Part shown: positions 342-18,356 of the stretch, piece after piece
Layout: every line of letters begins with the position of its first letter
Position numbering within the stretch: position 1 is the first letter of the stretch
From: a virus
Reading direction: 5' to 3' (one strand)
Length of the DNA stretch: 22,920 nucleotides
Virus record (IMG/VR): IMGVR_UViG_3300030090_003725
Coordinates: 1 to 22,920 of that record
Notes under the pieces: generated by a model
What the model was told of the DNA's origin: nothing
The model's input: only the letters and a program-made list of their open reading frames with translations
The model's database searches: none
Program-made: the position numbers and the translations under genes

Positions 342-760
342 TGTATGAATATAAATGTAATATAGATAGAGTTGTAGATGGCGACACAGTTGATGTAATT
401 ATCGACTGTGGATTTTCTATATTGCATAAAGCAAGAGTTCGTATGTATGGTATTGATACACCAGAATCAAGGACTAGAGATAAAGATGAAAAGGCTAGGG
501 GTTTAATTAGTAAAGATTTTTTGGTTAAAGAATTATCAAAAGGCGATGTTGTTATAAAAACTAAAAAAGATAAGAAAGGTAAATTTGGAAGAATACTTGG
601 TGAGTTTTATGTTAATAACATAAATATTAATCGATTAATGATACACAGTTTTTATGCTGTTGCATATGATGGACAAAGCAAAGAAGATATTGAAAAAGAA
701 CACATCATTAATAGGCAAACATTGATTGCAAAAGGTTTGTTTGATCCAAAAAACATATGA
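341..760 (+). CDS. Staphylococcal-nuclease-fold (thermonuclease-like) protein
   Basis: This protein of about 139 residues has the SNase fold signature and a complete set of expected active-site residues. DGDT (D15 matches SNase Asp21), VRMYGIDTPES (R34, D39, T40 and E42 match Arg35, Asp40, Thr41 and Glu43) and KFGRILG (R84 matches Arg87) are all present. It is therefore probably an active calcium-dependent nuclease rather than a Tudor-like relic. I place the start at ATG 341, which overlaps the previous stop as TAATG; an in-frame GTG at 332 would add three residues. No signal peptide is visible, unlike secreted thermonucleases, so it probably acts in the cytoplasm or is packaged. The stop overlaps the next start as ATGA. 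Plausible roles are host DNA degradation or nucleotide salvage. Confidence 0.85.
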   Translation: MYEYKCNIDRVVDGDTVDVIIDCGFSILHKARVRMYGIDTPESRTRDKDEKARGLISKDFLVKELSKGDVVIKTKKDKKGKFGRILGEFYVNNININRLMIHSFYAVAYDGQSKEDIEKEHIINRQTLIAKGLFDPKNI

Positions 761-1896
761 AAAAATATTTACCATTTCTTTCAGTAATTATTGCTGTTTT
801 ATTGGCTTTGCTTATTAATAATGTAAAAGCAGATCAAACTGGAGATTGCACTGCTGGTTCTCAATATTGTGAACAGAACTCGATGACTACGACATCGACT
901 ACTACTACAACAAATACTAATACGAATACCAATACAAATACCAATACCAACAACAATACAAATACCAATACTAATACCAATACAAATACTACGACTACTA
1001 CTGGTACAAACACAAATACCAATACTAACAACAATACAAATACCAATACATCTACTGCTACAAACACAAACAGTAATACAAACAACAATACATCAACTTC
1101 GACTGCTACAAATACAAATAGCAATACAAACACCAGCACATCGACTGCAACTAGTACGAACAACAATACAAATGTAAATACATCGACTAGTTCAAACACA
1201 AATACAAATAACAATGTAAATACTTCGACCAGTACAAATACGAACAATAACAACAGCACATCGAATAATACGAATAGCAATACGAATATAAATACATCGA
1301 CATCAAACAACACTAATAAAAATGTAAATGAATCGACTTCTACATCGAATGTGCAGACGAACAATAAAAATGTAAATGAAAACAGTAGTACATCTAATAA
1401 CACAAACCGAAATATTAATGAGTCAAAATCTGAACAAACTATCAATCAAAATATCAAAACTGAAGCACCACCTGCTTCTGCGATTGCTCCTAGTATTATG
1501 AGTTATAGTCAAGATTTATGTACTGTAGGAAGATCAGGTGCATTTCAAGGACAAGTATTTGGTTTATCGGCTGGAAGAACTGTAAGAGATACAAACTGTG
1601 AACGATTAAAACTAGGAAAGTATTTATATGATATGGGCATGAAAGTAGCAGCAGTTGCTATTATGTGCCAAGACGTTAGAGTATTTAGTGCTATGTATAT
1701 GGCTGGTACTCCTTGCCCATACGAAGGTAAAATAGGCGAAGAAGCAAGAGCAGCTTGGGCTGCTAACCCCAAAGATCGACCAGACTATAAAGAAGCAAAA
1801 GCCAGTTATGTTGCTAAGTGTGTTAGAACAGAAAACTCTGCTGGTCAAAATAAATCAAGACTAACTTGTAAACGTGAGTTTGATAAGGGCAGTTAG
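757..1896 (+). CDS. Secreted Asn/Thr-repeat protein with conserved Cys C-terminal domain
   Basis: This 379-residue protein starts in an ATGA overlap with the nuclease gene. Residues 1-25 form a clear signal peptide (MKKYLPFLSVIIAVLLALLI, then a VKA-D cleavage-like site). Residues about 44-235 are low complexity: mostly alternating Asn-Thr, drifting to Ser-Thr and Asn-Ser-Asn. Residues about 245-325 are an ordinary folded-looking domain containing LCTVGRSGAFQ, FGLSAGRT, a DTNCERLKLGKYLYDMGMK helix, AAVAIMCQD and GTPCPY. The C-terminus is basic with two further Cys. I associate this C-terminal domain with hypothetical proteins of uncultured marine phages, with no known function. The gene overlaps the next secreted protein by 23 bases, so the two are probably made together. 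Export through the host Sec system is inferred. A surface, envelope or virion-fibre role is possible. Confidence 0.85.
   Translation: MKKYLPFLSVIIAVLLALLINNVKADQTGDCTAGSQYCEQNSMTTTSTTTTTNTNTNTNTNTNTNNNTNTNTNTNTNTTTTTGTNTNTNTNNNTNTNTSTATNTNSNTNNNTSTSTATNTNSNTNTSTSTATSTNNNTNVNTSTSSNTNTNNNVNTSTSTNTNNNNSTSNNTNSNTNINTSTSNNTNKNVNESTSTSNVQTNNKNVNENSSTSNNTNRNINESKSEQTINQNIKTEAPPASAIAPSIMSYSQDLCTVGRSGAFQGQVFGLSAGRTVRDTNCERLKLGKYLYDMGMKVAAVAIMCQDVRVFSAMYMAGTPCPYEGKIGEEARAAWAANPKDRPDYKEAKASYVAKCVRTENSAGQNKSRLTCKREFDKGS
886..1440 (+). repeat. Low-complexity Asn/Thr-coding repeat tract
   Basis: This tract is built of AAY-ACN codon pairs (AATACT, AATACG, AATACC, AACACA and similar), with TCN and occasional GTA codons increasing toward the 3' end. 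The unit is protein-level: third positions vary freely while the Asn-Thr alternation is kept. It lies entirely inside the secreted protein gene at 757-1896. Confidence 0.9.
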
Positions 1897-4177
1897 TTTA
1901 GTTTTTGTTTTATTTATACCCACATTAAATGCAGGGTATATTTATGAAGCGAATCAATCTCTTATTGATTTAAAAACAAACTATATAGCTACATCTAACA
2001 ATATGGCAGTTGGTGATGATCAAGTATCTTCTGCTTTTAATTTAGACTTTACGTTTACGTTTTATGGCGAAGACTTTACTTCTGCTCGAATGGCAACAAA
2101 CGGATGTTTACATTTTAAAACATCAGGAAGTTATTGTAATGATTACACTCCTGATCCTCTTGCAGGACAACATACATATACCTTGTATCCTTTCTGGACT
2201 GATTTAATACGAGACAATGGCTCAAAAGTATTGGCTAGAAATTTTACGGATAAGACTGTATTTGGTTGGTATAACTTACGAGAATATAATCGAGGCAATA
2301 CAGACAATTCGTTTGAGGTCATACTTTGGAAGTCAGATGACAGCTTTGAATTTAGATACGGCGGTTTAAACATCATTAATCACGATGTATTGATTGGTGA
2401 ACAAGGCAGTTCAGATGAGTCTTATACTTATTTGTATCACGATGAATGTAGCACAGGCTCAACAAATGTTGCAGGTACTTGTGTTAATACAAATTGGAAC
2501 AGTACATCTTTTAATACTTTATTAGAGAGTGGGGGCAGCTTATATGGTGTTGGTTCTGGAAACGGATTGGATTGTAGTAATCCTTTAAATGATACTGCGT
2601 GTACTGGTTATCAAGCAGCGTTTTTAAATCAACAATGTGATTTAGATGGATTGTATTCTACTCAATGTCCTAACTATTGGGATGATCTTTTTGATTATGA
2701 ATGTTCGTTGGATTCTCAATACTCTCCAACTTGTGCTGGGTACATGGTCGAAACATTTGTTGAAGATGCCTATTATCAAGAAGATATGTTTGGCTATGAT
2801 GATTATGAAGACGACCAGTATGGATATTATGATCCCTTTGAAGAAGAAGATTATTACTTTGAAGAAGAACCTATATATATTGCTGAGTTACAGGGGATAG
2901 AAATCTATGAAGAAGAATTATATTTTGAAGAAACATTGTTTTTTCAAGAAGAATACTTTGATCCTTTTATAGAAGAATTTAATTTAACTCCTGACGAAGA
3001 ACTTATTCCATTAAGTTATATAGAAGAAGAAACATATATACAACATATATACGAAGAATTAATACCAATAGAAGAAACTTTTGTAGTTAATTACGATTTG
3101 CCTAGACTGGATAATGTTTTACTTGATTATTTTGAATACGAAGAACACATTGAAGAATACATAGAAGAAGAAGTGATTGAGTATCTAGAGTTTGAAACGA
3201 TAGAAGAAATAGAGGAATGGATTGAACAAGAAGAAACGGAAGAAATATTGGAAGAACTTGCTCTTCTGTCTGATGTTGAAGATGGAGACCTGGAGGATAC
3301 AGAAACAGCTGAAGAAGAAATACAAGATCGAGAAGAAAATATCGAGATTGTTGTCGCAGAGAATGAAGAGAAAAAAGACAACAAAAGAGCAGAACAATTA
3401 AATGTTGTAGCTAACAGTATTATTGCAGCAAGTAACAGTGTAAGTGGTACAACCGCTGGAACATCTGGACAGGCCACAGGTACATCTATGTCATCAGGAG
3501 GCTCCTACGCTTCTTCTGTGGCTTCTGGTGGCGTTTCTAACCCTACCAGTACAGCAGTGGCTAGTTCAGCGTCAGGAGGCGGTATAAGCACCAGTAATTC
3601 GCCTAGCATCTCAGCTCAAGTTGCAAGTTCTGCAATGCAGACTCAACAAGTGCTTAGTTCGTTTAATGCCGACAGCAGTGTTGGAAGTACAATTGTTTCG
3701 CAAAACACAACAGTAGGAGATACCAACAGTGGTAGTAACGTAGCTGTAGGTTCAACCACTACAACAACTACTGAAACGAATACAAGCAGTAGTGTTGCAA
3801 GTAACACAAGTAGTGGTAATACAGGAGTTAGCGATACTATAGTTGATAGCAATACATCAGTTAGTCAATCAGATGCAGATGTTATTGCAGATCAAATCGT
3901 TGCACAGAACATAGAAGATCAACAAGAACAATTGGAACAACAACAACAAGAAACAGGTGAATACGCAGATGAATCTCAGTTAATTGGATACATGGCTTAT
4001 GTCCCAGGGTTTAGTGCTTATAGTCAAGTTGAAGTTCCTCAACCTAGTGTTTGGTACGAACCTGAGATAATATATGGTAATGTTAATATTCCAGACAACA
4101 ACTCAGCGTTTGGTGGATTGTATGGAAACAGTTTAACTGGAATGAATAATTTAATTAATATGCAGCCTAATTTATAA
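1874..4177 (+). CDS. Large secreted protein: nidogen-like domain, Cys repeats, acidic Glu/Tyr segment
   Basis: This 767-residue protein starts with GTG inside the end of the previous gene (23-base overlap); no clear Shine-Dalgarno is visible. Residues 1-20 form a signal peptide (VSLVFVLFIPTLNA-G). Residues about 21-210 look like a nidogen (NIDO)-type beta domain, with FTFYGEDFTSARMATNGC, YPFWTDLI and FEVILW. Residues 233-290 hold three imperfect Cys repeats (C-x9-C-x2-Y type). Residues about 295-500 are extremely acidic, rich in Glu, Tyr, Ile and Phe. Residues about 510-675 are Ser/Thr/Gly/Val-rich, followed by a short Gln-rich piece. The last 50 residues (VWYEPEIIYGNVNIP, FGGLYGNSLTGMN) look like a distinct conserved end. 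Its function is unknown. The exported, adhesive-like architecture suggests envelope or surface interaction, or an unusual tail fibre. Confidence 0.85.
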   Translation: MSLIRAVSLVFVLFIPTLNAGYIYEANQSLIDLKTNYIATSNNMAVGDDQVSSAFNLDFTFTFYGEDFTSARMATNGCLHFKTSGSYCNDYTPDPLAGQHTYTLYPFWTDLIRDNGSKVLARNFTDKTVFGWYNLREYNRGNTDNSFEVILWKSDDSFEFRYGGLNIINHDVLIGEQGSSDESYTYLYHDECSTGSTNVAGTCVNTNWNSTSFNTLLESGGSLYGVGSGNGLDCSNPLNDTACTGYQAAFLNQQCDLDGLYSTQCPNYWDDLFDYECSLDSQYSPTCAGYMVETFVEDAYYQEDMFGYDDYEDDQYGYYDPFEEEDYYFEEEPIYIAELQGIEIYEEELYFEETLFFQEEYFDPFIEEFNLTPDEELIPLSYIEEETYIQHIYEELIPIEETFVVNYDLPRLDNVLLDYFEYEEHIEEYIEEEVIEYLEFETIEEIEEWIEQEETEEILEELALLSDVEDGDLEDTETAEEEIQDREENIEIVVAENEEKKDNKRAEQLNVVANSIIAASNSVSGTTAGTSGQATGTSMSSGGSYASSVASGGVSNPTSTAVASSASGGGISTSNSPSISAQVASSAMQTQQVLSSFNADSSVGSTIVSQNTTVGDTNSGSNVAVGSTTTTTTETNTSSSVASNTSSGNTGVSDTIVDSNTSVSQSDADVIADQIVAQNIEDQQEQLEQQQQETGEYADESQLIGYMAYVPGFSAYSQVEVPQPSVWYEPEIIYGNVNIPDNNSAFGGLYGNSLTGMNNLINMQPNL

Positions 4178-4178
4178 A

Positions 4179-4487
4179 ATGGCAGTAAAAAGAAAACGAA
4201 AAAGAGCTAAAGCAATACCCAGAACCACAGGTAAAGGCGGTAATTATCGCAAAACAAAAGCTGGCGCAGGCATGACTAAAAAAGGAGTCAGAGCCTATAG
4301 AAAAAAGAATCCTGGATCTAAGTTAAAAACTGCGGTTACAGGTAAAGTTAAAAAAGGAAGTAAAGCCGCAAAAAGACGAAAGTCTTATTGCGCAAGGTCT
4401 TTAGGACAACTGAAAAGAAGTTCTAAAAAAACTAGAAACAACCCTAATTCAAGGATTAGGCAAGCAAGAAGAAGATGGAAGTGTTGA
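4179..4487 (+). CDS. Small very basic protein, DUF6321-like
   Basis: This 102-residue protein is dominated by Lys and Arg and begins MAVKRKRKRAKAIPRTTGKG. It contains GMTKKGVRAYRKKNPGSKLK, KAAKRRKSYCARSLGQ, and a C-terminal NPNSRIRQARRRWKC. This ordered set of motifs matches a family I recall from marine phages as DUF6321; the assignment is from memory and unchecked. The charge suggests nucleic-acid binding, for example condensing or packaging DNA or acting on host nucleic acid, but no function is established. It lies one base after the previous stop and is followed at one base by another basic protein. Confidence 0.8.
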   Translation: MAVKRKRKRAKAIPRTTGKGGNYRKTKAGAGMTKKGVRAYRKKNPGSKLKTAVTGKVKKGSKAAKRRKSYCARSLGQLKRSSKKTRNNPNSRIRQARRRWKC

Positions 4488-4718: not shown

Positions 4719-5084
4719 ATGGATTGGTTTCAAAGTAAAACAACACAGCTTATTGCACTAGCAGGTATAGTTAGTACACTGGCTGGTTTTGGTTATACAG
4801 GTGCAACGTATGTTAATCGCATAGAAAATCTTGAGTCTAAAATGACTCGTTATATTAACGAAATAGATGCCCTTGCTGACCAGGTTACAGGACTGGACAA
4901 AAATGTAGTTGCTGTTGGTGAACAAATTAAATCATTAAATGTTGAGACACAAGATTTAAGTCCAATTAAAAATGACATTGTGGCCATACAAACAAGCATT
5001 GCAGGAATAAACTCAAGCATTGATTCTATGTACGATGATGTGCAAAGTTTAAAAAACAAAAACGATAACCCATTGGCGAATTAA
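4719..5084 (+). CDS. Membrane-anchored coiled-coil protein, hypothetical
   Basis: This 121-residue protein is preceded by a good Shine-Dalgarno (AGGAG at 4710-4714, 4 bases before ATG). Residues about 8-30 form one hydrophobic helix with a short cytoplasmic N-terminus. Residues about 33-115 are a heptad-like coiled coil with repeated Leu/Val/Ile spacing (RIENLESKM, IDALADQVTGLDKNV, IKSLNVE, IAGINSSIDSM). An N-terminal membrane anchor and a long periplasmic coiled coil are compatible with an i-spanin-like lysis protein or another lysis accessory. No overlapping o-spanin lipoprotein frame was seen, so this role is a guess. Confidence 0.72.
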   Translation: MDWFQSKTTQLIALAGIVSTLAGFGYTGATYVNRIENLESKMTRYINEIDALADQVTGLDKNVVAVGEQIKSLNVETQDLSPIKNDIVAIQTSIAGINSSIDSMYDDVQSLKNKNDNPLAN

Positions 5085-17235: not shown

Positions 17236-17458
17236 ACTCCTCTCTGGAAATCAACATGTCCAGGTAGAACCTGGCTTTCTTATAATCCTCAAGTGTCTTG
17301 CCCTTGTGTGGGGCACGCCAAATGTATTTAAAGATTTGCCCCTTGAGGTAGCCGACAAACTCAGAAGCACTCAAAGCCGATGCAATGGCATCGAGCGCTT
17401 CTATGCCCCCCTGGGTGTAGTGTGGTGGATGATTGACTGGATCGTTTTTATCAGTCAT
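17189..17458 (-). CDS. DUF3310 protein (T7 gp1.7-like nucleotide kinase family)
   Basis: The product is 89 residues long from the ATG at 17458. That start overlaps the upstream PP-loop gene stop by eight bases (ATGACTGA), and a ribosome binding site GGAAGGAG lies 11 bases before it; the frame extends further upstream but would intrude deep into that gene. The family signature is complete: NDPVNHPPHYTQGGIEALDA, GYLKGQIFKYIWRAPHKGKT and LEDYKKARFYLDMLI. DUF3310 includes T7 gp1.7, a nucleotide kinase that phosphorylates dGMP and dTMP. Activity here is inferred. The polar tail (REESNQESQRTEDSSRSQ) goes beyond the usual family end and lies in the region overlapping the convergent nuclease gene. 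It is the last gene of the minus-strand operon. Confidence 0.85.
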   Translation of the reverse strand: MTDKNDPVNHPPHYTQGGIEALDAIASALSASEFVGYLKGQIFKYIWRAPHKGKTLEDYKKARFYLDMLISREESNQESQRTEDSSRSQ

Positions 17459-18356
17459 GACAAAAACAACTCCTTCCATCGTCATCGAACAATTCCACTT
17501 GCTGTGCATCGAGTCGTGCCATTTCAACCAAGTCAGTATAACTTCGTGACTTGTTAAAGGTTGCGGTACTAACTTTCTTGTTTTCGTATTCTGTTCCTTT
17601 GTTTAGTTTTTCTATTCTTTTTTCTTGCTCAATCCACCAATCGGCAAGTTCCGGGCGTTCTTTTATAATCTGTATCAATGTTCTTGTGCCTTTTAAAAAA
17701 CACAAATCACAATTACCTGCTTGGGTTTTACCATTGTGGTTGGGAAGGCCTAAATCAAACTCATGGTTTTCCCAAAATCTAGATACGTCTTCTACCATGA
17801 TTTTGTAATCATACAAAGGGACCAAAGATGTCCATTTGTTTTTTCCTAAATCGTTTTGTTTTCTTTGTTTAGCAACTCTTGATGGCTCGTCGTATCTCAA
17901 GCCAACAACATTCGCCCATTCTTTATAACCTTTGGCTCGCATAAATCGATTCATTACTTCAATCTTCATCTTAATCGTGCACAGCCTAGCCACCACGTTT
18001 GGCAACATTTTCTTTCTTCCTATCAATGCCTCAAACGGTTCTCCATTTCTACTGGCTGTTTCATAGGTGACTTCTTTGGTGCGATAAATGGGCCGCTCTT
18101 CAAACACTTCGAGTTCCAACCAATGCACTTTAACGCCCCACCTGGTTGAGCACTCATGAATAAAGTCCAATGTCTCTGGCATTTCTTTGCCTGTGTTTGC
18201 AAAAGTCACATGCACATCATCAGGCAATGTCCAGTCGTAAGACTCAAGGATTTTGTAAAGCATATAACCCGATGTTCGACCACCACTAAAACTAATCAAA
18301 GTAGGGCAGTTAAACTTCTCAGGCAGAAATATCTGTTCTTCATTGGGTTCAGACAT
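17451..18356 (-). CDS. PP-loop PAPS-reductase-like protein
   Basis: This 301-residue protein of the adenine-nucleotide alpha-hydrolase (PP-loop) superfamily has SGGRTSGYMLYK (residues 24-35), the pyrophosphate-binding loop. It is followed by FANTGKEMPETLDFI (52-66), RLCTIKMKIEVMNRFM (124-139), VGLRYDEPSRVAK (151-163) and GNCDLCFLKG (215-224). Cys126, Cys216, Cys219 and the C-terminal CFC (297, 299) could bind an iron-sulfur cluster or metal, as in PAPS reductases and DndC. PAPS/APS reductases reduce activated sulfate, and DndC acts in DNA phosphorothioation; no DndA/B/D/E genes are visible. The start overlaps the exonuclease stop (ATGTCTGA). In this operon a role in nucleotide or DNA modification, or counter-defence, is inferred. 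Confidence 0.85.
   Translation of the reverse strand: MSEPNEEQIFLPEKFNCPTLISFSGGRTSGYMLYKILESYDWTLPDDVHVTFANTGKEMPETLDFIHECSTRWGVKVHWLELEVFEERPIYRTKEVTYETASRNGEPFEALIGRKKMLPNVVARLCTIKMKIEVMNRFMRAKGYKEWANVVGLRYDEPSRVAKQRKQNDLGKNKWTSLVPLYDYKIMVEDVSRFWENHEFDLGLPNHNGKTQAGNCDLCFLKGTRTLIQIIKERPELADWWIEQEKRIEKLNKGTEYENKKVSTATFNKSRSYTDLVEMARLDAQQVELFDDDGRSCFCHD

Follow-up and report, generated by a model that had tools for sequence, protein, structure and literature searches.

A conserved, three-part, exported and envelope-directed module is very probably encoded by genes A, B and C of a 22,920-base stretch of viral DNA (IMG/VR record IMGVR_UViG_3300030090_003725; hereafter the window, whose position numbers are used throughout), which derives from a marine, pelagiphage-like tailed phage. 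Gene A (757-1896, plus strand, ATG start, 379 amino acids) encodes an exported stalk protein, gene B (1874-4177, plus strand, GTG start, 767 amino acids) an exported, acidic, multi-domain protein, and gene C (4719-5084, plus strand) an inner-membrane-anchored coiled-coil protein that ends in NPLAN and has an i-spanin-like topology. The original prediction, made from the window alone, was of two adjoining genes with a 23-base overlap, each with a Sec signal peptide and together specifying 1146 residues, and all of this is confirmed in the reading frames. Its broader proposal of an undescribed exported pair acting in the host envelope is also supported, while the idea of a two-component system holds for the pairing of A with B and has to be extended to three genes by the addition of C. 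Genomic position and protein topology favour a role for the module late in infection, and the reading that we prefer, at a probability of about 0.4, is a spanin-like role in breaching the outer membrane at lysis. No description of the A-B pair or of the A-B-C module was found in the papers that were searched.

Conservation of the A-B pair

Relatives were collected from IMG/VR, 144 for B and more than 400 for A; those of B were taken from this source because a search of 50,697 phage records with B gave no match. After the removal of duplicates the adjacency counts rest on 186 distinct viral A genes, 169 of them with a complete 5' end, with export scored by a simple heuristic and the sampling biased towards relatives of the query. 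A signal peptide was scored in 160 of the 169 genes with complete 5' ends, the peptide itself varying in sequence among relatives while the property of being a signal peptide is retained. The open reading frame (ORF) that follows A was scored as specifying an exported product in 169 of 173 loci, compared with 472 of 1689 background ORFs (28%), and the ORF next to A overlaps it in 151 of 169 cases. Members of the B family lie directly after A in 142 of the 173 distinct viral loci, and most of the remaining loci have a different exported protein at this position. Adjacency in viral contigs, which had been set beforehand as a check on the prediction, is near-universal, so that rare adjacency no longer stands as an objection. 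The tail-fibre alternative, for which homologues lacking signal peptides were anticipated, is weakened in that the peptides are kept.

The sampling bias towards query relatives does not extend to the annotated phage collection. Exported B adjoins A in all 11 annotated records that carry A, namely the Pelagibacter phages HTVC023P, HTVC033P, HTVC115P, HTVC202P, Baldr (with one small membrane ORF between the two genes) and Mosig, the roseophages CRP-207 and CRP-810, and three uncultured phages. The carriers of A-B-C are mainly phages of SAR11 and roseobacters, in which the module lies among late genes. A few relatives encode, between A and B, an exported DUF5658-like protein of about 130 amino acids (L028 at 2323-2712, L027, L031, L032, L098, L105 and L201).

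Gene C as the third member

Linkage of C to A is stricter than that of any other neighbour. In all 97 viral A loci for which 5.5 kb or more of downstream sequence is available, C is present within 3.5 kb downstream, and it is missing solely at bacterial chromosomal A loci; in a stricter set it was present at 50 of 50 loci, every other neighbour occurring at 27 of 50 or fewer. Among the annotated A records other than MW202481, C in most cases comes right after B or within two small genes. The protein has a single membrane helix at its N-terminus, together with a coiled coil and, nearly always, an NPL[AN] motif at its C-terminus: the N-terminal transmembrane segment was found in 211 of 213, and NPL falls within the last 12 residues of 210 of 214 C candidates, as against 41 of 12,477 other ORFs. 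The C protein of the window matches phrog_739 (Rz-like spanin) at E=4.5e-4, a weak match of coiled-coil type.

Two existing roseophage annotations are corrected by these comparisons. The 'lysozyme' proteins CRP-810 gp51 (L162:7165-7587) and CRP-207 gp73 (L161:3292-3873) are transmembrane/coiled-coil proteins of the C type, with an NPLGR end in CRP-810, and the 'OmpA family' protein CRP-810 gp53 is A. The 'lysozyme' genes were therefore discarded as adjacent endolysins, and the support that they had lent to a role in lysis was withdrawn.

Anatomy and family of gene A

The A protein begins with a type-I Sec signal peptide that lacks a lipobox (757-831, plus strand, residues 1-25; MKKYLPFLSVIIAVLLALLINNVKA, cleaved before DQ at VKA/DQ), followed by a Cys pair (DCTAGSQYC), a low-complexity Asn/Thr/Ser stalk (880-1467, plus strand) and a four-Cys, all-helical domain (1468-1893, plus strand). 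The stalk comprises 196 residues, including 72 Asn, 68 Thr and 28 Ser, is encoded by imperfect tandem repeats detected with Tandem Repeats Finder, and has predicted local distance difference test (pLDDT) values below 50 in the AlphaFold2 model. An antisense ORF at 861-1445 was discarded as a by-product of this repeat tract. Stalk length ranges from 118 to 288 residues among 78 relatives, while the four-Cys domain, with its GTPCP ... IG motif, is strongly conserved in alignments. The domain accounts for the confident part of the model, the last 100 or so residues (approximately 280-379, pLDDT 80-91), and is entirely helical.

The A protein matches PHROG 20531, a family whose function is not described, at E=4.1e-15, and the tested isolate relatives match it likewise; PHROG 20531 is a sequence family only, with no system or partners described for it. 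The four-Cys domain has no Pfam family, the A profile matched no PDB sequence, and every significant match of A in BFVD is an uncharacterised or unnamed viral protein. The domain constitutes an unnamed family. A hydrophobic C-terminal tail, the feature expected of a protein anchored in a membrane from the periplasmic side, is present in eight viral A proteins.

Anatomy and likenesses of gene B

The B protein, encoded on the plus strand throughout, opens with a type-I Sec signal peptide, again without a lipobox (1874-1933, residues 1-20; MSLIRAVSLVFVLFIPTLNA, cleaved before GY at LNA/GY). It continues with a beta-sandwich domain resembling NIDO and the N-terminus of RemA (1934-2539, residues 21-222, pLDDT mostly 67-94), repeats of the type CxxxxxYSxxCxGY containing six Cys (2540-2749, residues 223-292), an acidic Glu/Tyr-rich linker that is mostly disordered in the AlphaFold2 model (2750-3373, residues 293-500; Glu 31%, Tyr 10%, Asp plus Glu 39%, Lys plus Arg 1%), a region defined by its Ser/Thr/Ala/Gly-rich composition (3374-3853, residues 501-660), and a C-terminal segment whose WYEPxIIY...DN motif forms near-invariant alignment columns (3854-4174, residues 661-767). 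The compositional description given in the original prediction thus stands for the Asn/Thr tract of A and for the Cys repeats and Glu/Tyr segment of B, with the correction that the Ser/Thr/Gly 'tail' is not terminal, being followed by conserved residues 661-767. The AlphaFold and Foldseek analyses that it had proposed qualify its term 'mega-disordered' in a similar manner: pLDDT is below 50 at 252 of 379 residues in A and 375 of 767 in B, yet each protein has one confident, conserved domain, and neither model found a significant match in the PDB with Foldseek.

The clearest likeness of the N-terminal domain is to the Flavobacterium gliding adhesin RemA (8gl6_D), with B residues of approximately 16-159 aligning on RemA 20-171 (E=2e-9); the rest of RemA is missing from B. 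The designation of this domain as nidogen-like finds weak Pfam support, since the consensus of the B family resembles NIDO (PF06119; E=0.0067, 16.9 bits) below the curated cut-off of 25, and the B protein of the window itself gives no match to it. In annotated phages the N-terminal domain of B is of other types, either helical or like a carbohydrate-binding module (CBM), the latter scoring below cut-off with CBM_4_9 and being annotated there as carbohydrate-binding. A is the constant partner and B the variable one, because it is the N-terminal domain of B that changes type among these phages. The C-terminal motif of B is partly shared with other B types (25 bits in L174 and 16 bits in L171, the best shuffle reaching 11.4), while in HTVC023P it scores no better than the best shuffles.

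Several other candidate likenesses were rejected. A weak CPW_WPC match in B was attributed to coincidence of Cys spacing, matches of MRE11 and of NCBIfam models to the acidic or low-complexity parts were attributed to composition, and a profile comparison of two B types, B(A2) and B(A4), was set aside as evidence for N-domain homology, since its alignment was confined mostly to the signal peptides and one short segment.

Bacterial relatives and the probable site of action

Some Hyphomonadaceae-type Alphaproteobacteria also carry the A domain on their chromosomes; it was present in 7 of 150 genomes of the order and, among 385 of the class, in the query genome only. At least some of these genes are not of prophage origin, because their neighbours include genes such as that for ribosomal protein S6 (read from translation). 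The bacterial proteins are built like those of the phages, with a signal peptide, often a Cys pair, an Asn-rich or collagen-like repeat and the A domain, and about a third of them have a fused OmpA domain, which is peptidoglycan-binding. In three bacterial genomes (L282, L193 and L271) tandem genes specify a collagen-like stalk with an A domain and then an A domain with OmpA, which, judged by their sequences, are an undescribed pair of surface or peptidoglycan proteins. Such tandem pairs, in which the second member has the OmpA domain, recall the OmpA-domain anchors that accompany collagen-like or adhesin proteins (TpgA-type), whereas the A proteins of phages lack an OmpA domain and their partner B is unrelated to OmpA.

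Directly upstream of A, lipoprotein genes that contain a miniature A-like Cys motif occur in CRP-810 (L295:38698-38958, minus strand), CRP-207 (L296:48061-48276, minus strand) and MW202675 (L281:886-1101, plus strand). The motif scores 13-19 bits, compared with a best score of 8.9 in 3000 shuffles, and the lipoproteins of the two CRP phages are seemingly unannotated. From their sequences they look like short forms of A anchored in the outer membrane. The hydrophobic tails of viral A proteins, these lipoproteins and the OmpA fusions together suggest that A and B would act in the periplasm and at the inner side of the outer membrane, and not on the exposed cell surface.

A proposed spanin-like role and its alternatives

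In HTVC202P, Baldr and Votkovvirus MedDCM the gene order is A-B-C, none to two small genes, and TerL; in T7 both spanin genes lie directly before TerL. A minimum of 24 of the 90 C genes have a peptidoglycan hydrolase gene within 2.5 kb, nearly always downstream. No plausible lipoprotein, sought as an ORF with a lipobox, was found in the window, HTVC202P, Baldr, HTVC115P, HTVC023P or HTVC033P, three of the five pelagiphage genomes being covered over 50 kb (all but their last 5-11 kb), and the same scan recovered all of its positive controls, lambda Rz1, Bor and T7 gp18.7. Two-component spanins (lambda Rz/Rz1 and T7 gp18.5/18.7) offer several parallels: C has the same topology of one N-terminal transmembrane segment and a coiled coil, the genes overlap, they lie upstream of TerL in T7-like members, and an inner-membrane protein is combined with exported partners. 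The differences are that the window has no lipoprotein, that there are three proteins instead of two, and that A and B, which contain folded beta and helical domains, exceed spanins several-fold in size.

A spanin-like mechanism can be outlined on this basis. A and B would be delivered to the periplasm or to the inner surface of the outer membrane, where the stalk of A would span the distance and its Cys-stabilised helical domain would dock near the membrane or the peptidoglycan. The beta-sandwich of B may bind an envelope glycan or protein, and C, by means of its coiled coil and conserved C-terminal tip, would keep the assembly anchored in the inner membrane. At lysis, in phages with no recognisable lipoprotein spanin, the complete assembly would then help to weaken the outer membrane or to break through it. 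The more specific proposal, that a trans-periplasmic complex of a repeat-stalk A whose new four-Cys domain recurs in alphaproteobacterial surface or peptidoglycan proteins, a host-tuned, glycan-binding B and C replaces spanins in SAR11 phages, or does something novel among phage systems, is rather doubtful.

A number of observations weigh against a spanin-like role. HTVC010P and HTVC019P, which have neither A nor B, are also without lipoprotein spanins, and the absence of such spanins is thus not specific to phages with A-B-C and was dropped as a trait characteristic of them. Both phages have C-like proteins, and C is therefore not dependent on A and B. Beside the C-like gene they also encode small, exported-looking Cys proteins (L299:37996-38223, L299:39338-39547 and L300:23304-23537), which may serve as partners of C in the absence of A and B. 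The endolysin is distant from A-B-C in CRP-810, Baldr, HTVC115P and HTVC202P. Known spanins are far smaller than A and B, a simple spanin would have no use for the domains of B that resemble those of adhesins or glycan-binding proteins, and neither A nor B of the window has a lipobox.

In the main alternative, A and B would be exposed on the outside of the cell late in infection and would mask receptors or act as an adhesin, the NIDO- or CBM-like domain of B covering or binding surface glycans so that superinfection is blocked or progeny are kept off debris. The Llp protein of phage T5, which protects T5, provides a model. The match to the adhesin RemA, the below-cut-off CBM_4_9 score and the carbohydrate-binding annotation of the domain in other phages, its variation while A and C remain constant, as for a host-specific binding part, and the adhesin-typical collagen-like stalks of the bacterial A relatives are all in keeping with such a function. 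The cassette, however, shows no visible route for surface display (no CsgG, autotransporter or type IX secretion signal), the module lies among late genes whereas exclusion genes are usually early, and this reading offers no reason for the tight linkage to an inner-membrane coiled-coil protein. We regard masking or adhesion as somewhat less probable than the spanin-like role.

Virion or matrix components are less likely than either a spanin-like or a masking and adhesion role. A place in the virion, with A and B as appendages of the tail or capsid and their N-terminal hydrophobic segments unused for export, is improbable: the genes do lie within the structural half of the genome, and NIDO- or CBM-like domains and long disordered parts are generally known in fibres, but signal peptides are retained despite sequence divergence, neither protein matches a PHROG tail or head family, both have conserved Cys residues, and A has bacterial chromosomal relatives. 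Slightly more improbable still is a function in an extracellular matrix or in aggregation, on the model of phage-encoded curli (the type VIII secretion system, T8SS). The low-complexity tract rich in Asn and Thr, whose length varies from 118 to 288 residues, and the reported presence of phage-encoded curli genes in related pelagiphages, where they are proposed to cause 'sibling capture' (PMC7029224, PMC9599517), would fit this explanation. The stalk nevertheless differs in sequence type from one A relative to another, several isolates have a short one, no clumping was seen in the Melnitz study (PMC9004378), and A and B match no Csg family in Pfam, PHROGs or NCBIfam. Identity with curli was discarded for want of a CsgG, CsgF or CsgA-B homologue in either protein; the pelagiphage curli/T8SS modules are likewise phage-encoded, envelope-directed clusters in the same phage groups (PMC9599517), and differ from A-B-C in their gene set and in the Csg homology that A-B-C lacks. 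The roles suggested in the original prediction, of surface exclusion, spreading or a matrix, are hypothetical, and no curli/T8SS component was found in the pair.

Among phage envelope and lysis systems, A-B-C represents a novel variant and may even be a kind of its own. The scanned pelagiphage isolates have no recognisable lipoprotein spanin, and a strictly linked module with a new domain family is a concrete candidate. Its carriers infect some of the most abundant bacteria of the ocean, and the module would allow many 'hypothetical proteins' in marine viromes to be named.

Other features of the window

A gene of the staphylococcal nuclease type occupies positions 332-760, and its stop region contains the start of A. 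One window gene matches the virion structural family phrog_3287 in a PHROG profile search, and the matches of the 1314-amino acid protein of the window are HTVC027P gp85 and its relatives. An Rfam search found nothing. Between B and C, a basic DUF6321 protein with the terminus RRRWKC is encoded at 4179-4487; it has a stand-alone copy in HTVC010P (26149), and in PHROGs this domain forms the C-terminal part of much larger phage proteins. On the minus strand, positions 17451-18356 contain a gene resembling that for phosphoadenosine phosphosulfate reductase (phrog_424).

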